From contig NZ_JARVSC010000009.1 of assembly GCF_030209375.1 (NCBI RefSeq), positions 124,001-188,000 of the forward strand: DNA of 64,000 bases, read 5' to 3'. Shown one piece after another: positions 40,054 to 62,196 of the stretch. Each line of letters opens with the position of its first letter. The stretch's first letter is position 1. The notes below the pieces were generated by a model that was given only the letters and a program-made list of their open reading frames with translations, ran no database searches and had not been told where the DNA came from. The stretch comes from Plantibacter sp. ME-Dv--P-122b. GTDB taxonomy: Bacteria; Actinomycetota; Actinomycetes; Actinomycetales; Microbacteriaceae. The position numbers and the translations under genes are program-made.

Positions 40054-40069
40054 CGTTCCACGTGAAACA
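40054..40069. promoter_or_regulatory. parS: parS-like site 1
   Basis: CGTTCCACGTGAAACA matches the 16-base parS consensus TGTTTCACGTGAAACA at 14 positions. It lies between the trxBA terminator and parB. Confidence 0.8.
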
Positions 40070-40123
40070 TCCTTGATGATGATTCTGATCAGGGATTGTC
40101 AGTCACAAATCGCGCGCGTGGCA

Positions 40124-40206
40124 CTTCGACAAGCTCAGTGACCGAGATGGGGCGAACGTCCGCCGATCCAAGGATCCCACCGCCTTGGTCCCTGAGCTGG
40201 TCGAAG
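40124..40206. repeat. Intergenic inverted repeat, copy 1 of the CTTCGACAAGCTCAG family
   Basis: CTTCGACAAGCTCAGTGACC (start 40124) and GGTCCCTGAGCTGGTCGAAG (40187-40206) are near-complementary arms about 42 bases apart. The element is intergenic, between trxA and parB. Confidence 0.7.
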
Positions 40207-40236
40207 GGCGGAGGATCCTCTGGGCGGGTACGCCCA

Positions 40237-40252
40237 TGTTTCACGTGAAACA
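40237..40252. promoter_or_regulatory. parS: parS site 2, perfect match
   Basis: TGTTTCACGTGAAACA matches the parS consensus at all 16 positions. It lies 3 bases beyond the stop codon of parB. Confidence 0.93.
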
Positions 40253-40255
40253 GGG

Positions 40256-41314
40256 TCAGGAGGTCTGACCGAATCCCGACTCGCCAAGCTCGCTCAGAAT
40301 GCGGTTGAGGTCGGCGATGGTCGCGAACTCCACGACCATTTGGCCCTTCTTCGCACCGAGCGTCACCTTCACGCGGGTGTTCAGACGGTCGCCGAGACGG
40401 TCTGCGATCTCATCGAGTTGCCCGCGTCGCGATCCGGCCACCGGCCGCGGCTTCTTCGCCTGGACACCCTGCGCCGCCGCGGCCTCGGCCGCGCGCACGG
40501 ACAGGTCCTCGTTCACGATCTTGTCGGCCAAACGCTGCTGTGCCTCAGGATCGGTCAGCGACAGGATGGCACGCGCGTGTCCGGCGCTCAGCACGCCGGC
40601 GGCGACACGCTGCTGCACGGCCGCCGGCAGCTTGAGCAGGCGGATGGTGTTGCTGATCTGGGGACGTGACCGCCCGATGCGGTTGGCGAGCTCGTCCTGG
40701 GTGATGCCGAAGTCTGCCAGGAGCTGCTGGTAGGCAGAAGCCTCCTCGAGCGGGTTCAGTTCCGAGCGGTGCAGGTTCTCGAGCAGCGCATCGCGCAGCA
40801 TGTCCTCGTCGGCGGTGTCCTTGATGATCGCGGGGATACGGTCGAGACCCACCTCCTTCGAGGCACGAAGACGCCGCTCACCCATGATGAGCTCGTATCG
40901 TTCGTCGTCGCCGGGAATCGGCCGAACCACGATCGGCTGCAGTACGCCGACCTCGCGGATGCTCGTGACGAGTTCAGCGAGGTGGTCCTCATCGAACACC
41001 GTGCGCGGCTGGTTGGCGTTCGGCACGATCAGTTCGGGGGAGAGGTACGCCAGACGGGCACCGGGAACGGCCACGAGCTGCGGTCCATCGGCTGCGGTGA
41101 CAGGAGCGTCCGGTCCGGTGGGGGCGTCGACCGCCGCCGCCTCTGCTGCGGCCGCGTCCGCGGCGGCGGTCGCAGCGTCTTTCGCCGCCTTGCGGGCAGT
41201 GCCCTGGTTGTCGGGGAAGAAGACGTCGACGGGACGGTTCGCCTGCGAGTCTGAACTCGTCGTCGGAATGAGTGCACCGATCCCGCGACCGAGTCCAGTT
41301 CGTTTCGTTGCCAT
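40256..41314 (-). CDS. parB: Chromosome-partitioning protein ParB
   Basis: The product is 352 residues. KRTGLGRGIGALIP opens the protein. The ParB/Srx nucleotide-binding (CTPase) domain has LSPELIVPNANQPR and IMGERRLRASKE (the GERRxRA motif), followed by ENLHRSELNPLEEA and a helix-turn-helix, FGITQDELANRIGRSRPQISN, that reads parS. The C-terminus carries the dimer domain. ParB loads at parS, slides as a CTP-bound clamp and recruits SMC and ParA. Its start overlaps the parA stop by one base (TGATG), so the two are coupled. Confidence 0.96.
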   Translation of the reverse strand: MATKRTGLGRGIGALIPTTSSDSQANRPVDVFFPDNQGTARKAAKDAATAAADAAAAEAAAVDAPTGPDAPVTAADGPQLVAVPGARLAYLSPELIVPNANQPRTVFDEDHLAELVTSIREVGVLQPIVVRPIPGDDERYELIMGERRLRASKEVGLDRIPAIIKDTADEDMLRDALLENLHRSELNPLEEASAYQQLLADFGITQDELANRIGRSRPQISNTIRLLKLPAAVQQRVAAGVLSAGHARAILSLTDPEAQQRLADKIVNEDLSVRAAEAAAAQGVQAKKPRPVAGSRRGQLDEIADRLGDRLNTRVKVTLGAKKGQMVVEFATIADLNRILSELGESGFGQTS

Positions 41315-42294
41315 CAGTGACTGACTCCCTCAGGGTGGTTCGTATCGGGTGTATCGGAGGAGCCTGCGGCCCATCGGTTGGCGATCTCCGCCGCTGCTTC
41401 GAGATAGGACACCGCGCCGAGCGACGTGGGGTCGTAGCTGATGACGCTCTGCCCGAAGCTGGGCGCCTCGGAGATGCGCACCGCTCGTGGGATGACGGAT
41501 TCGAGGACCTGTCCCGTGAAGTGGTCCCGGACGTCCTGGGCCACCTGCTGTGCAAGGTTGGTGCGGCCGTCGTACATCGTCAAGAGAATGGTGCTGACGG
41601 CGAGCCCGGGGTTCAGGTGCCGTTGGATCAGCTGGATGCTACTGAGGAGCTGACTCAAGCCCTCGAGCGCGTAGTACTCGCACTGGATGGGGATGAGCAC
41701 CTCTTTGGCCGCAACGAAAGCATTGATCGTCAGGAGCCCGAGCGACGGTGGGCAATCGATCAGGACGTAGTGGAACGGCTCCTCGGCGTCCTGGATGAAC
41801 TGCTCGAGCGCCGTGCGGAGTCGGTGCTCACGGGCAACCTGCGATACGAGTTCGATCTCCGCACCGGCGAGATGAATCGTCGAGGGCGCGCAGAACAGCG
41901 TGGGGAACTCAGGGCTCTGCTGGACGACATCGGCCAGGGGGAAGTCGTCGATCAGGACGTCGTAGACGCTCGGGACGTCGGAATGGTGTTCGACGCCAAG
42001 TGCGGTGGACGCGTTCCCCTGAGGGTCCAGATCGATTACCAGGACACGCGCGCCCGAACGAGCGAGCGCGGCGCCGATGTTGACGGTGGTGGTCGTCTTG
42101 CCGACTCCACCCTTCTGGTTGGAGACCGTGAAGACCCGAGTGTGGTCGGGCGTCGGCAGGGTTGCGTGAGCCAAGGCTTTACGCCTCTCAGTCAAATGGT
42201 GGAGCTCGCGAGCCAACGGCGTGGACGCGTCGAAGGCGCTACCAACGGAGTCGCGCTCGGGAGCCGCGGAATGCGTTGGTTCGGGTTGTTTCAC
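41314..42294 (-). CDS. parA: Chromosome-partitioning ATPase ParA
   Basis: The product is about 326 residues. The deviant Walker A motif QKGGVGKTTTT, the Walker A' LVIDLDPQGNAST and Walker B YVLIDCPPSLG define a chromosomal ParA/Soj. It moves ParB-bound origins. The start is placed at GTG 42294, inside a parS site: AGAAGG lies 6 bases upstream and a TACGGT hexamer at 42332-42327 would start transcription beyond the alternative ATG at 42324. The first 50 residues are a poorly conserved tail before the TPLAREL segment. Confidence 0.93.
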   Translation of the reverse strand: MKQPEPTHSAAPERDSVGSAFDASTPLARELHHLTERRKALAHATLPTPDHTRVFTVSNQKGGVGKTTTTVNIGAALARSGARVLVIDLDPQGNASTALGVEHHSDVPSVYDVLIDDFPLADVVQQSPEFPTLFCAPSTIHLAGAEIELVSQVAREHRLRTALEQFIQDAEEPFHYVLIDCPPSLGLLTINAFVAAKEVLIPIQCEYYALEGLSQLLSSIQLIQRHLNPGLAVSTILLTMYDGRTNLAQQVAQDVRDHFTGQVLESVIPRAVRISEAPSFGQSVISYDPTSLGAVSYLEAAAEIANRWAAGSSDTPDTNHPEGVSH

Positions 42295-42302
42295 GTGAAA
42301 CC
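42287..42302. promoter_or_regulatory. parS: parS site 3, overlapping the parA start
   Basis: TGTTTCACGTGAAACC matches parS at 15 of 16 positions. The GTG start codon of parA is formed by its central bases on the minus strand, so ParB bound here would cover the translation start and the leader region. Confidence 0.88.
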
Positions 42303-42488
42303 TTCTTGCTCGAAACGTGTACATCAACCGTACCAGCGTGGGCTGACGCCAGGGGAGCGATCTCCGACAGTGATCGGGGGAGTGCGGACGCGTCGCGTCC
42401 CTTGAGCGCCGTTTCGCGACACCCGCATCTCGTCGATCGCCCCGCATGATGCTCAGAAAGGAACCCGCGCCCTCCTTCTTCCACAGGG

Positions 42489-42497
42489 TTATCCACA
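42489..42497 (+). promoter_or_regulatory. DnaA box
   Basis: TTATCCACA is a perfect DnaA box. It lies upstream of parA in the gene-free region. Confidence 0.6.
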
Positions 42498-42806
42498 GGG
42501 CTCCGGGATGCCCGACGCCGCGTAACCGCGTGCGCCTCGGGTGTGCAGGTCGAAGCTGGTCAGATCAATACGAGACGAGGCCGACGGACGTGTGTTGACA
42601 ATGATGGATGAGAACCCTCTGTGATCAAGCAGAGATCCGCGTCTTTCCGCGGAAGTTTGCACCAGAAGGCCCCACTCCGGGTCCGGTAGGTCCAGGCTCT
42701 TGCCCCGGTGCGGGTTGCCCACAGTGCGGTGATACGCCGATTGGGGCCCGCTTCTTCACGGAGGATCACCAGTTCCTCCGGTTAAGCGCGAGAACTGTCC
42801 ACAGAG

Positions 42807-42815
42807 TTATCCACA
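42807..42815 (+). promoter_or_regulatory. DnaA box
   Basis: TTATCCACA is a perfect DnaA box; a second, weaker TGTCCACAG precedes it by about 12 bases. Confidence 0.6.
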
Positions 42816-42876
42816 GGCGCCATCTCGACACGCTCGGACGATGAAGAGGTGTACGACTGGCACAAGTTCGCGCCAG

Positions 42877-42892
42877 CGTTTCACGTGAAACC
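42877..42892. promoter_or_regulatory. parS: parS-like site 4
   Basis: CGTTTCACGTGAAACC matches parS at 14 of 16 positions, with the 14-base core intact. Confidence 0.85.
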
Positions 42893-43064
42893 TCGATTTC
42901 GCCCATGCCGAAGCGTCGAACAGCTCGCATCGATCTGCGGCCTTCCAGCCTCTAGTCACGGCCTGCTATCCGCCTCACCGGTGTGACCCGAAACCGGGGG
43001 AGCGGTAGCGACGAAGCATCACACAGTCGGCCCGATCCCACGCTCGGACCGACGTACCGGCCGC

Positions 43065-43080
43065 GGTTTCACGTGAAACA
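43065..43080. promoter_or_regulatory. parS: parS site 5
   Basis: GGTTTCACGTGAAACA matches parS at 15 of 16 positions. Confidence 0.88.
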
Positions 43081-43207
43081 CTCTCGACAGGACCAACACG
43101 ACCGATGGATGTGATCTCAAGCCAGCCTGCGACCGCGCACTGTGCTCGTTGAAGCTCACCTGTCTCCGCCACCGCGTTGCAGTCATGCCGGAGCGGACCG
43201 ACACCCA

Positions 43208-43223
43208 TGTTCCACGTGAAACT
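43208..43223. promoter_or_regulatory. parS: parS-like site 6
   Basis: TGTTCCACGTGAAACT matches parS at 14 of 16 positions; the core has one substitution. Confidence 0.75.
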
Positions 43224-43355
43224 TCGAAACCGTGTCGGTCCAGCTACACCGACCTCACTCGGGCGGGCATTCACTGAACGAACTGGGTCACACGAATCCA
43301 GGGCGACAAGAACCACCTCTGAGAACGAACAACTCAAGCAGGTGGCATCCTCCCA

Positions 43356-43371
43356 CGTTTCACGTGAAACG
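43356..43371. promoter_or_regulatory. parS: parS-like site 7
   Basis: CGTTTCACGTGAAACG is a perfect palindrome that matches parS at 14 of 16 positions, differing only at the outer bases. Confidence 0.87.
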
Positions 43372-43909
43372 TCGCTCGATCTCACACTTCAGGCAACAAG
43401 CGCCTTCCGCAGTGCCTATCTGGGCGCAGAATCATGCATCGTCAATAGGGAGTATGCCTGCTCCTTCCAAGCTGACAGGAGTCACGAGCACGACCTCCGC
43501 AGTGCCGACGCACTTCGACACATCGTTACGCCGAATGGCCGCCGTGCACCGCACGACGCTGCCCCGTCGGGGAGGGCGCTAGGAGCAGCAGGGTGCTCCA
43601 ATGTGACCGCACCGCACGGAGCCGGAATCTCCAAGAGGGGAGCGCCTTCGACGCACGCGATAGCGGCGGGCCGCCCATCCTCTCCTTCTTCGGCCGGCAG
43701 CTCACCCACCACCTCAGCCAACACCGACCCGCCGGTGGACATGAACCTGCCGACGGTCGCGCGCCAGTCGGCCTGCAGGCACATAAAGGAACTGGCGGAG
43801 TGCGCATCTCGCAGCGGGTGCCCAACGCGGTCCGCCACGTGATGCACCACCGCGAGTCAGTTGAACCTTTGGGACGGGGCGACGCATCTTGCAACCAAGG
43901 ACCGCCTTG

Positions 43910-43982
43910 GGACTTACCCGGGATTCGAACGAAGGCCTCAGATCCCTGACGAGCCCGACCGGATCACCAATCTGAGAGGTCC
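43910..43982 (-). pseudogene. tRNA-like remnant
   Basis: Read on the minus strand, the segment begins GGACCTCTCAGATTGGTGA (acceptor and D-arm-like) and ends GTTCGAATCCCGGGTAAGTCC (T-loop GTTCGAATC and a 3' strand). Only 5 of 7 acceptor pairs and little of the T stem can form, and no anticodon arm is convincing. It looks like a decayed tRNA or a tRNA-derived integration scar. Confidence 0.25.
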
Positions 43983-44397
43983 ACCGTTGCCACCCGCACT
44001 CGTCCGTCATCTCCGAAGGGGCAGCTAGCTGGCCGGCGACCGCGCATAGCATCGACGTCTGGGTGCGCCGACCACCGGAGCGCGGAGCATCGCCGCCCGT
44101 CGATGGCGGTGCCGGCGCCGCGTCACGAGACTGCAGCTATAGACCAAGTCAAGAACATATATGAGATACCAGGAGCAACACTGCTGGCAAACGTCAGAAA
44201 ACACCTGAATCCGGCCCGCCCAGCGCCCCAAATTCGTGTCCGAATGGAGCGGAGAATCGTTCCTGACGAACTCAGGACCTCTGAACTGGCCGCATGTTCC
44301 CGACCGGTTCGTCAGGAGCCATTCTCCCGCGAGCTCGCAAACCGCCAAATATCGGCCGAGGTGCGCACGCGGCTACTCCGAGAGCTCCCGACGGACT

Positions 44398-45039
44398 TCA
44401 GCCGCGGACGGTACCCACGATGACTCGGGTCGGCTCCGCGAGCACGCCCTCGCCGAGCGTTCGAACCTCGACGCCGGAGACCCGGTACTTGCGAAGCTCC
44501 TTGGTCGACGCGTCGACCTCCGCCTGCGCGCCGGCGCCCTTCATCAGAACCAGCTCTCCGCCGTCCTGAAGCAGGGGAGCGGTGAGGGGGAGCAACTTGC
44601 GGAGCGCGCTGACGGCTCGCGCGGTCACCTGGTCGAGGGGCTCATCGAGGCGAACCTCTTCAGCACGAGCTCGCACGACGTTGACGTTCTCAAGACCGAG
44701 GACACCGACCTGGTCGTTGAGCCAGGCGACCCGACGCTCCATCGGTTCGATGAGCACGAACTCGACGTCCGGCCGGGCGATCGCAAGGACCAGTCCAGGC
44801 AGCCCCGCACCAGTGCCGACGTCCCCGACACGTCCGGGACGAAGGAGTGGAGCCACGATCACGCTGTTGAGGATGTGTCGTGTCCAGAGACGCGGAAGCT
44901 CGAGAGGCCCGATCAGCCCGAGAGGTTCGCCGAACTCAGCCAGGTTCGCGGCGAAAGCACGACCGACATCGATGCGGTCGCCGAACAGCTCGGCTGCTTC
45001 CGCCGGTTCCGGCTCGAGTCCTGCAGGCACGTCAGTCAT
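44398..45039 (-). CDS. rsmG: 16S rRNA (guanine-527-N7)-methyltransferase RsmG (GidB)
   Basis: The product is 213 residues. LPRLWTRHILNS is the RsmG signature, VGDVGTGAGLPGLVLAI the SAM-binding motif and ARAVSALRKLLPL the late motif IV. It methylates G527 of 16S rRNA (E. coli numbering), and its loss gives low-level streptomycin resistance. The ATG is at 45039, just past a parS site, and jag lies 30 bases upstream on the same strand. The gene ends where the gene-free region begins. Confidence 0.93.
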   Translation of the reverse strand: MTDVPAGLEPEPAEAAELFGDRIDVGRAFAANLAEFGEPLGLIGPLELPRLWTRHILNSVIVAPLLRPGRVGDVGTGAGLPGLVLAIARPDVEFVLIEPMERRVAWLNDQVGVLGLENVNVVRARAEEVRLDEPLDQVTARAVSALRKLLPLTAPLLQDGGELVLMKGAGAQAEVDASTKELRKYRVSGVEVRTLGEGVLAEPTRVIVGTVRG

Positions 45040-45042
45040 CGC

Positions 45043-45058
45043 AGTTTCACGTGAAACG
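45043..45058. promoter_or_regulatory. parS: parS-like site 8
   Basis: AGTTTCACGTGAAACG matches parS at 14 of 16 positions. It fills the 30-base gap between jag and rsmG. Confidence 0.82.
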
Positions 45059-46574: not shown

Positions 46575-46886
46575 TCAGCCCTTTCCGTGGCTCGGTTGCA
46601 CGACAAATCCGTGAGAAGTGACGCTGTACCGGAAGTTCTTCTTGGGTGGTACCTCGTCGAAACGAGGTGCTGCCCAGGGGTGGCATCTCGCGATGCGGGC
46701 CGCTGCCATCGCCGAACCGACAACGACACCGTGTTGCTGCACCGCTCCCAGAGCGTACGCGGAACAGCTGGGGTAATACCGGCAGACGTCCCCGTAGAGC
46801 GGCGAGATCGCGGCGCGGTACCCGCGAAGCGCCAACACCGCAGCATTGCGGGGCGCGAGGCAGGTGGCAGCGAGGACGCCGTTCAT
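46575..46886 (-). CDS. yidD: Membrane protein insertion efficiency factor YidD
   Basis: The product is 103 residues. RGYRAAISPLYGDVCRYYPSCS and RIARCHPW carry the family's conserved Cys and Arg residues. YidD acts at the inner face of the membrane next to YidC. Its ATG overlaps the rnpA stop as ATGA. The C-terminal 25 residues are variable, as is common. Confidence 0.92.
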   Translation of the reverse strand: MNGVLAATCLAPRNAAVLALRGYRAAISPLYGDVCRYYPSCSAYALGAVQQHGVVVGSAMAAARIARCHPWAAPRFDEVPPKKNFRYSVTSHGFVVQPSHGKG

Positions 46887-47245
46887 CGGTGCGCGTCCGA
46901 AGCCGGGGCGATGACGCCGCGTTTGGCGAAGGCGCGATCGACCTCGGCATGGAGCGAGGCGAACGGAGCCGTCGCTGCAGACGGCATCGCACGGATGACC
47001 ACGTCAGCCCCGCGGGCAGCGTGAACGACGCTGTCGTGGCAGATGGCCTTCAGGCGGCGTCTGACGAGATTGCGGGTCACTGCGTTTCCGACCGTTTTCG
47101 CAACGATGAACCCGAAGCGCGGCTGTCCGCCCTTCGGGTTCATGCGTACGTACGTGACCGTGTGCTCGCCGACGAACCGGGACCCGCGACGAACCACCCC
47201 TCGGTAGTCGTCGCCGGACGTGATCCGGCTCGCACGCTCGAGCAC
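46883..47245 (-). CDS. rnpA: Ribonuclease P protein component
   Basis: The product is about 120 residues. RFGFIVAKTVGNAVTRNLVRRRLKAI is the RNR signature that binds the RNase P RNA. The protein helps the RNA subunit mature tRNA 5' ends. GTG at 47245 (VLERASRITSGDDYR) is chosen because homologues start with this LxRxxRI(x)xxDD(Y/F) segment; a longer frame up to 47314 would overlap rpmH. It begins 7 bases after the rpmH stop. Confidence 0.92.
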   Translation of the reverse strand: MLERASRITSGDDYRGVVRRGSRFVGEHTVTYVRMNPKGGQPRFGFIVAKTVGNAVTRNLVRRRLKAICHDSVVHAARGADVVIRAMPSAATAPFASLHAEVDRAFAKRGVIAPASDAHR

Positions 47246-47252
47246 GACGGCT

Positions 47253-49139: not shown

Positions 49140-49146
49140 CCCCTGT

Positions 49147-49197
49147 CCGGTCACTGAGCCTGTCGAAGTGCCGCCCCTCGACAGGCTCGGGGACCGG
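49147..49197. repeat. Intergenic inverted repeat, copy 2 of the CTTCGACAAGCTCAG family
   Basis: The arms CCGGTCACTGAGCCTGTCGA (from 49147) and TCGACAGGCTCGGGGACCGG (to 49197) face each other with about 9 bases between. It lies immediately after dnaA. Confidence 0.7.
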
Positions 49198-49237
49198 GGA
49201 ACCGCTACGGCGCCTGAGGCGTCCTGGTGAACGTTTC

Positions 49238-49273
49238 CGGCCCCTCGACGCACTCGGTGCGCTCGAGGGGCCG
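49238..49273 (+). terminator. dnaA terminator
   Basis: The stem CGGCCCCTCGA/TCGAGGGGCCG is continued by CGCAC/GTGCG with one bulged base and closes a three-base loop. Confidence 0.7.
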
Positions 49274-49685
49274 ATTTCGTTCATCAGGCGACGACGAGCG
49301 CACATTCCACGACATGATCCGCGACCGATCTCTCCACATTCCGACCTCGCAGCCCTGTGGATAACCTGTGGAGGGATGTGGAAGCTCCGGGCAGGCTTGT
49401 GAGTGAACATCGTTCACCGGCCTCCGCGTCCCACACCCTCGTGTCGTTCTCTCCACAGGCCACCACCAAGTTACACACATGTAGTTCCCTGTGTTCGAGC
49501 GGGTTCGGCGGACTTATCCACAGTTTCCACACCGGTTAAGACTGTTAACCGTTAATTCAATGATCTCTCCGCCAAACAACCTTTCCCCAGGCTCGCTTCT
49601 CCACAGCACCCCGTCCCACTCGACCCCGGAAGCGGACCCACTAGCATTGGTGACGTCATCGAGAGCCAGAGACAGGGGACTTGTC
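49274..49685. other. oriC: Probable replication origin (oriC) between dnaA and dnaN
   Basis: The gap holds perfect DnaA boxes TGTGGATAA (49356-49364) and TTATCCACA (49514-49522), the variant TTACACACA (49471-49479) and several CTGTGGAG or CTCCACAG half-like sites. The AT-rich tract at about 49533-49562 (GTTAAGACTGTTAACCGTTA) is a likely unwinding element near dnaN. dnaA-dnaN spacing and content match other actinobacterial origins. I see no gene in it. Confidence 0.8.
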
Positions 49686-61815: not shown

Positions 61816-61826
61816 GCGGGACCGCA

Positions 61827-61919
61827 CTTCGACAGGCTCAGTGACCGGGTTCGGCTCAGTGACCGGGTGTGGCTCGGTGTGCCGGCTCGGATCCGTGACC
61901 GGGTGCTGCCCGGTGACCT
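61827..61919. repeat. Intergenic repeat, copy 4 of the CTTCGACAAGCTCAG family, partly tandem
   Basis: CTTCGACAGGCTCAGTGACC starts at 61827, followed by further GGCTCAGTGACCGGG and CCGTGACCGGG copies up to 61919. It is a decayed or expanded version of the element, after the rhomboid gene. Confidence 0.6.
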
Positions 61920-61985: not shown

Positions 61986-62082
61986 TTATCCACAGAGTTA
62001 TGAACACTGGGGATAATTACACCGGTGTGGTTCCCCGTGTTTCCGGGGCTCCCCGCGGTTGTCCACACCAGCATGTGGATAA
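61986..62082. promoter_or_regulatory. Second DnaA-box cluster, outside the origin
   Basis: Three perfect or near-perfect boxes lie within 97 bases: TTATCCACA (61986-61994), TTGTCCACA (62059-62067) and TGTGGATAA (62074-62082). TTATGAACA and GGGGATAATTAC and a TCTCCACA-N-TGTGGAGA palindrome (to about 62112) stand around them. The 381-base gap between the rhomboid gene and crgA holds this and the repeat, but no gene. Confidence 0.6.
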
Positions 62083-62196
62083 CTGGGAAGTTCTCCACAT
62101 TCCTGTGGAGAACTCGATGCGACCGATGTCCGGTACAACGAAACAGCGGGCCGTCCGAGAGGACGACCCGCTGTGCACGACGTGAAGTGGGGGCGG

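Follow-up and report, generated by a model that had tools for sequence, protein, structure and literature searches.

Background

In Corynebacterium glutamicum ten redundant parS sites, nine of them intergenic, nucleate ParB and serve both chromosome segregation and the loading of SMC (PMC7083940; papers are cited here for those parts of their text that were available). Most bacteria cluster their parS sites within 5-40 kb (PMC8357415), and the question why some bacteria need one parS and others several has been called unanswered in a review (PMC6399470). The same review describes the work of Mera et al. 2014, according to which DnaA acts at the centromere of Caulobacter crescentus, and RNA polymerase is a known obstacle to SMC in Bacillus subtilis (PMC8357415). 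Here we describe a putative ParABS centromere in a stretch of 64,000 nucleotides from the actinobacterium Plantibacter sp. ME-Dv--P-122b, of the family Microbacteriaceae (contig NZ_JARVSC010000009.1, positions 124,001 to 188,000; hereafter the window), where eight parS-like sites are grouped around parB, parA and rsmG (gidB) and four of these lie in a gap without recognisable genes between parA and rsmG.

Judged from its sequence, the locus is very probably a chromosomal centromere of the ParABS type, built as a regional platform free of genes, with a terminator-like hairpin on one side and the predicted parA promoter on the other. The ParABS system is of a known kind; what is new is the regional gene-free layout that includes a DnaA-parS module under length constraint, a module so far known from two genera of the family. 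The order repeatedly shows dense parS arrays in gene-poor DNA, and the window is one case of this design. The family provides a natural series of parS numbers in one intergenic position, represented by many sequenced genomes. The arrays lacking a codon-phase signal across the order suggest that regional centromeres from which genes are kept away may exist in bacterial chromosomes, and the fixed-length module offers a direct and cheap test of initiator action at the centromere outside Caulobacter. In the open-licence literature searched, as far as its texts were available, no gene-free parS array and no fixed DnaA-parS module is described; no paper there pairs parS sites with Microbacteriaceae, and none of those that name parS, ParB and Microbacterium together concerns such an array by its title or the start of its abstract.

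Methods

The genome to which the window belongs consists of 14 contigs (3.92 Mb). Its RsmG has 98% identity to those of Plantibacter flavus and a second Plantibacter strain, in keeping with the assignment to this genus. Seven Plantibacter genomes were aligned, comprising the window and the loci L088-L093. The family sample was taken from the loci of 80 named relatives, of which four (L037, L052, L068 and L078) were dropped, their ParA not having been obtained; the 76 loci with both RsmG and ParA make 77 with the window. In this sample gap length was taken as the distance between the stop codon of rsmG and the core codons of ParA. For the order, 40 loci were picked by hand from 69 genomes for family spread and room on the contig; three of them belong to the same family as the window and one (L146) ended before parA, which leaves 36 loci outside the family. 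A parS cluster was defined as at least four sites with at most one mismatch and neighbours within 700 bp, and clusters were sought in 121 loci including the window.

Coding character was assessed by the three-phase G+C contrast in 300-nt bins. Scoring of the open reading frames (ORFs) of the gap by codon usage was dropped in its favour because of poor discrimination, known genes (mean 0.23) overlapping with wrong frames (95th percentile 0.27). The names parA, parB and rsmG were given by search and the other gene names of the window were taken from the usual actinobacterial order, which we take to be trxB trxA on the plus strand, the minus-strand row parB parA, gap, rsmG jag yidC yidD rnpA, and rpmH dnaA dnaN on the plus strand. 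The origin (oriC) is presumed to lie at its usual actinobacterial position at dnaA-dnaN.

Results and discussion

parS sites and the par genes

The initial annotation had listed eight parS-like sites within 5 kb, four of them within 500 bases inside the gap. Rescanning the window at up to three mismatches to TGTTTCACGTGAAACA returned exactly these eight (one without mismatch, two with one and five with two), and none was found in 100 dinucleotide-shuffled versions of the window. Sites 4-7, all in the gap, span 495 bp, and the other four (sites 1, 2, 3 and 8; Table 1) stand at or near gene borders. In a scan of the whole genome all eight exact GTTNCACGTGAAAC sites fell within this same 5 kb, which bears out the annotated grouping. 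Four further places in the genome are one mismatch away from GTTNCACGTGAAAC; the two that were inspected both lie within coding frames (FHVEPG), and for one of them the counterparts in two other genomes do so too. Every GTTTCACGTGAAAC or GTTCCACGTGAAAC site among those listed for the six other Plantibacter genomes is at the par locus. Sites of the form GTTCCACGTGGAAC, 80-110 kb off, were considered as outlying parS and rejected, those inspected lying in coding frames.

Six of the eight sites are present at the aligned place in all seven Plantibacter genomes, some with one changed base, and the 14-bp core of site 2 is intact throughout; the remaining two are in place in five genomes, site 1 having a changed base in one of them. 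The neighbouring ParB scores 205 bits against TIGR00180 (parB_part, cut-off 58) and 221 bits against the Noc model, which is higher than its parB_part score but under the Noc cut-off of 315, and its structural matches are the Spo0J/ParB/Noc structures 6sdk, 7ng0 and 6t1f. All eight sites carry GTTNCACGTGAAAC, which speaks against their being Noc sites, although no search aimed at Noc sites was made. ParA adjoins this canonical parB and matches ParA-type NCBIfam models under their cut-offs. Its open frame extends to 42447, and its likely start is a GTG that is kept in all seven genomes, as is the ribosome-binding-site-like AAGAAGG six bases ahead of it, with one variable base beside; an ATG at 42321 was rejected as the start, being missing from some relatives. 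With this start the gap comprises 42295-44397.

The locus has several TGTTTCACGTGAAACA-type palindromes near oriC, conserved over background in the relatives. The proposal of a dedicated centromere beside the origin, made in the initial annotation, has in this respect good support from the sequence, namely a canonical ParB, the confinement of all near-perfect parS sites to 5 kb and the conservation of most sites in a fast-evolving gap.

The gap between parA and rsmG

Bins starting at 42150-44250 have a phase contrast of 0.03-0.20, as against mostly 0.25-0.6 in the flanking genes, and shuffled gap DNA has a mean of 0.08 and a 99th percentile of 0.20. Low-contrast bins also occur within some genes (0.05 at the parB-parA junction and several at 46650-47250), so that this test alone is no proof of freedom from genes. 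No Pfam match above cut-off was obtained for the 12 ORFs of at least 60 amino acids lying wholly in the gap or for the five overlapping its ends, and no Rfam match for the gap itself. The description of the gap as about 2.1 kb without a credible gene is in agreement with these results. Its identity to the window is 71-84% in four Plantibacter relatives and 45% in two, compared with 80-95% for the genes.

A decayed or fast-evolving gene, or a small RNA, might still be hidden in such DNA, and ORFs of up to 221 amino acids lie wholly within it. At 43913-43940 there is, by eye, a stretch on the minus strand resembling a tRNA T-arm. We consider such a gene or RNA highly improbable, given the lack of any Pfam, Rfam or tRNA match and of a codon-phase signal, the low identity between species and the folding of the T-arm-like stretch, which is no better than that of shuffles (z +1.54). 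A candidate tRNA remnant at 43913-43999 was dropped on the same folding result, neither ARAGORN nor Rfam having called it.

Against this variable background a few elements are kept in all seven Plantibacter genomes: the block at the 5' end of parA with parS 3, two perfect DnaA boxes, parS 4-6 and the arms of a hairpin. The block upstream of parA is a probable promoter of this gene, with TACGGT as a possible -10 element. The hairpin has arms with few changes and a loop that varies; it folds at -48.2 kcal/mol (z -2.76, with 3 of 200 shuffles equally good), and its own genome has no other good copy (next best E 0.017). Its form and its position after rsmG are terminator-like. The hairpin, the DnaA boxes and the fixed-length module described below come in addition to what had been annotated at first.

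A dispersed palindromic sequence of the cttcgacaggctcagtgaccg type was seen by eye in intergenic copies at 40120-40210, 49150-49200 and 61825-61870.

Arrays and gaps in relatives

Within the family the gap ranges from 85 bp to 7.3 kb (median 1546 bp; at least 1 kb in 48 of the 77 loci) and holds 0 to 14 parS sites, with at least one in 70 loci and at least three in 49. In 65 loci the ParA core is preceded at 60-190 bp by a parS site, and in 57 loci one stands near the rsmG start. Gap length and number of sites are correlated (Spearman 0.81 over the 77 loci, uncorrected for descent). Outside the family the median gap is 467 bp, 24 of the 36 loci having at most 1 kb and 12 more than that, and 12 carry at least three sites. 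The remark in the initial annotation that most actinobacteria have shorter gaps at this place is correct for this sample of other families and does not apply within the family itself.

Four loci of other families (L116, L128, L130 and L137) have a short gap and 12-14 sites at up to two mismatches, which, with no more than one exception in any locus, lie beyond the point where the parB match ends, in DNA without a codon-phase signal. Across the 121 loci, 61 of 62 parS clusters had a phase contrast under that of their surroundings (mean 0.11 vs 0.36); the median inside the cluster reached 0.25 or more in five (L036, L071, L107, L119 and L125), and L107 alone was above background. Coding-like windows made up 6% of those at 701 parS sites vs 63% of 6151 random windows. 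Because parS arrays free of genes occur widely in both the family and the order, the gap of the window is not unique; dense arrays recur in many relatives, in some of them downstream of parB.

Several observations count against the interpretation as a regional centromere. On a quick tree of the family the gap changed between its long and short states at least 10 times, and over independent pairs the link between gap length and parS number was not significant (median p 0.22). Position-specific G+C reveals at least nine gene-like ORFs in the gaps of six relatives (L004, L011, L027, L030, L051 and L076), and therefore not every gap of the family is wholly gene-free; the gap ORFs common to L004 and L006 and to L030 and L031 have 87-95% protein identity. 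Two of the seven Plantibacter genomes (G005 and G006) each have a GTTGCACGTGAAAC at a distance of about 220 kb. Sites 1 and 7 are missing at their aligned places in L092 and L093, also two of the seven, so that individual sites turn over, and the hairpin has no T-run. In C. glutamicum one parS suffices, and a dense array may for this reason be mere redundancy (as far as the available part of PMC7083940 goes).

The sites could also be ordinary clustered parS in neutral non-coding filler, where copies are harmless and the freedom from genes has no function. The wide range and repeated changes of gap length would fit this, as would the free evolution of most gap DNA and the existence of relatives for which a short gap with few sites is enough (the gap is under 300 bp in 21 of the 77, with a mean of 0.76 sites). 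We nevertheless hold it to be unlikely: filler does not readily account for the arrays without codon-phase signal that lie downstream of parB in the four loci with a short gap, nor for the preserved module length and hairpin, and non-coding DNA in bacteria usually shrinks.

Two other arrangements were seen among the relatives. L140 has five parS sites at exact 54-bp steps, a tandem array 440-656 past the end of rsmG. In loci titled Microbacterium, inverted copies of a palindrome of about 95 nt bracket the parS gap in 8 of 25 with a measured gap, and also in one metagenome-assembled genome (L021, L042, L050, L055, L057, L066, L073, L074 and L080). This palindrome has a conserved core and freely varying paired stems, with double changes at 15 of 24 consensus pairs, and gave no Rfam match in five loci. 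Among seven genomes searched there were 20 copies, one to eight in each of five Microbacterium and none in the genome of the window or in one Agromyces; 15 of the 20 are within about 41 kb of rsmG.

DnaA boxes and a module of fixed length

Two DnaA doublets of the form TCCACAGNGTTATCCACAGG lie in the gap, at 42480 and 42798. The perfect box 1 is present in all seven Plantibacter genomes, and so are CTGTCCACAGA and TTATCCACAG at box 2, where the half-box ahead is also kept in all. The parS region thus contains two perfect DnaA boxes throughout the genus sample, as in a centromere of the Caulobacter type. Their distances hardly vary among the seven, with 201-202 bp from parS 3 to box 1, 317-322 bp from box 1 to box 2 and 69-71 bp from box 2 to parS 4. 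In L092 and L093 the interior of this module is only 44-47% identical to the window, like the rest of the gap, and beyond it parS 8 is farther away by about 560-580 bp. In the four closer relatives there were 4 gap openings in 2103 aligned bp of the module vs 68 in 5315 bp of the remaining gap (Fisher p 2e-6, a value that is optimistic because the pairwise comparisons share ancestry). The net length of the module changes by 0, 2 or 3 bp, which shows that it is not kept as a reading frame.

A scan of 398 family genomes for parS-N(173-203)-TTATCCACA found the pattern in nine, the seven Plantibacter and two of the four of a second genus, and none of the matches listed was to the reversed control pattern. 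In L147 and L148, of this second genus, a pair of parS sites 388-399 bp apart encloses two DnaA boxes that face each other; the distance to the parS on the parA side, 202 and 204 bp, matches that in Plantibacter. The second genus is probably Labedella, because the parS spacings of its genome G185 are those of L047, Labedella endophytica. When a DnaA box with at most one mismatch was sought in the 450 bp ahead of the parA-side parS in the 65 family loci having one, the loci with gaps above 500 bp for which it was listed were L047, L028 and the four Plantibacter rows, and no others.

These distances recall a ruler, with DnaA sites spaced by about 201, 318 and 70 bp between two parS, the length being fixed and the sequence free. 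A contact of DnaA with ParB, by a loop or a bridge, might in this way tie the firing of oriC to the activation of the centromere, a tentative idea that we rate as distinctly unlikely. The DnaA part of the regional-centromere interpretation is itself weakened by the alteration of the half-box before box 1 in three of the seven genomes (L088, L092 and L093) and by the rarity of the spacing, which is confined to 2 of 85 genera and to 9 of the 398 genomes of the family, with two of the four genomes of the second genus among them. The module of the closer relatives has also slightly fewer substitutions (77-88% vs 68-83% identity), and in L092 and L093 there are 12-14 gap openings per approximately 500 bp of module vs 43-48 per approximately 1280 bp elsewhere in the gap, similar per base; these two keep only the net length, and their alignment is unsure at 45% identity.

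The 590-bp module may instead be the upstream regulatory region of parA, acted on by DnaA and perhaps by a factor at the TCCGCG dyad, and have no relation to the parS array. This is a possible, if doubtful, explanation. In its favour, box 1 keeps a distance of about 201-204 bp to the parS on the parA side in two genera, and the module adjoins the probable parA promoter; that box 2 and parS 4 are also in register, 590 bp away, is less easily explained by it, this length exceeding the usual promoter distance. As for the DnaA sites themselves, it is no less plausible that they act on parA transcription than that they relay replication to the centromere.

Two perfect DnaA boxes, one of them in a full doublet, might also suggest a second replication origin or a captured plasmid origin, which appears scarcely credible here. 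An origin would be expected to combine many closely spaced DnaA boxes with an AT-rich unwinding element, whereas the gap has just two DnaA sites, 318 bp apart, the G+C content around them is 0.61-0.63, and the usual cluster of DnaA boxes is in the dnaA-dnaN region; no plasmid replication gene was recognised by eye in the list of ORFs, for which no family search was made.

Elsewhere in the window, at 61986-62112, six DnaA boxes (two perfect and four with one mismatch) occupy 127 bp in an intergenic region beside a gene that by eye is rhomboid-like. This cluster is 12 kb from dnaA-dnaN and could be a site of DnaA titration or control. TCCACANNGTTATCCACAGG has one further copy in the genome and no more, outside the window at C9:77199 (L102 ~1999), between rplI-like and dnaB-like genes (by eye); a copy lies between the same rplI-like and dnaB-like genes in L103 of G003, and of the six other Plantibacter genomes all except G004 have a copy on the parA side of the gap, at a distance of 74-99 kb.

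Table 1. Sequence features of the par locus and its surroundings, in positions of the window
Feature	Position	Strand	Remarks
parS-like site 1	40054..40069	+	2 mismatches; ~190 bp beyond the parB stop
parS site 2	40237..40252	+	perfect 16-mer; 3 bp past the parB stop
parB	40256..41314	-	canonical ParB/Spo0J family; GERR motif, helix-turn-helix region
parA	41314..42294	-	likely GTG start 42294 within parS site 3; AAGAAGG upstream at 42301-42307
parS site 3	42287..42302	+	overlaps the parA start codon; intact in 7/7
Module parS 3 - DnaA box 1 - DnaA box 2 - parS 4	42287..42892		590-593 bp start to start in 7/7
Gene-free stretch parA-rsmG	42295..44397		~2.1 kb
Conserved block upstream of parA	42303..42350	-	near-invariant in 7/7
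DnaA box 1	42480..42499	+	perfect TTATCCACA at 42489, second half-box ahead
Imperfect dyad TCCGCG...CGCGGA	42637..42658		within the module; by eye; possible regulator site
DnaA box 2	42795..42817	+	doublet TGTCCACAGAGTTATCCACAGG
parS site 4	42877..42892	+	first of the four-site array; 7/7 at aligned place, three with one changed base
parS site 5	43065..43080	+	7/7, three with one changed base
parS site 6	43208..43223	+	7/7 allowing T/C at one position
parS site 7	43356..43371	+	at place in 5/7; L092 and L093 carry other sites in the gap
Hairpin	44251..44327	-	70 bp past the rsmG stop; near-invariant arms, variable loop
rsmG (gidB)	44398..45039	-	TIGR00138, 124 bits, cut-off 99.5
parS site 8	45043..45058	+	few bases upstream of the rsmG start; 14-bp core intact in 7/7
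dnaA-dnaN region	49140..49610		several DnaA boxes, probable oriC; ~6 kb from the parS array

Possible working of the putative centromere

From the sites, their conservation, the constrained spacing and the lack of recognisable genes we infer binding of ParB, DnaA and SMC, together with termination, repression and coupling, in the following manner. ParB-CTP dimers would load at the four parS within 0.5 kb and at the four at or near the borders of rsmG, parA and parB, and ParB clamps would slide into the gene-free DNA between them and build up a single large partition complex at a distance of about 6 kb from oriC. This complex would recruit SMC and be pulled by ParA. The array is probably little transcribed, because it is placed between the terminator-like hairpin at the end of the rsmG operon and the predicted promoter of parA; low transcription would spare ParB clamps from stripping by RNA polymerase and SMC from collisions. 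That the gene-free array may serve to keep clamps and SMC loading clear of transcription is suggested because RNA polymerase obstructs SMC in B. subtilis. A further probable role of ParB is the repression of parA and rsmG, through parS 3 on the start of parA and parS 8 ahead of rsmG. The two fixed DnaA sites probably provide an input of the replication initiator to parA expression or to the centromere, the latter being considered because the Caulobacter centromere offers a precedent for DnaA.

Comparison with known systems

The Plantibacter locus resembles that of C. glutamicum in the type of 16-bp site, in the redundancy of sites near the origin and in the predicted platform for ParB and SMC. 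The ten sites of C. glutamicum extend over 35 kb, 73 kb from oriC, whereas in Plantibacter eight sites occupy 5 kb, four of them 0.5 kb of gene-free DNA, approximately 6 kb from the probable oriC (PMC7083940, available part). In Streptomyces, too, ParB-bound parS sites lie near oriC, 16 being given for S. venezuelae (17 in a figure legend; PMC12511625) and 20 of 24 being near oriC in S. coelicolor (PMC2346475), but the accessible parts of these two papers describe neither a dense gene-free block nor a DnaA module. Caulobacter crescentus shares with Plantibacter the presence of DnaA boxes in a parS region close to the origin; it belongs to an unrelated phylum, and the Plantibacter boxes are predicted DnaA sites at fixed distances from parS (PMC6399470, in the section available).

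In gene order the locus agrees with the mycobacteria, where the row gidB-parA-parB is the same as in Plantibacter and where a parS upstream of gidB, reported to overlap a -10 box in M. bovis BCG, and a parS within parA are by position the counterparts of sites 8 and 3. In mycobacteria the codons of gidB and parA overlap and two parS are reported, whereas in Plantibacter 2.1 kb and four further sites stand between these genes (PMC2346475, from the portion of the text available). As read from its sequence, the Plantibacter locus has its genes in the mycobacterial order, with gidB and parA separated by a block that carries parS sites, no direction of change being implied.

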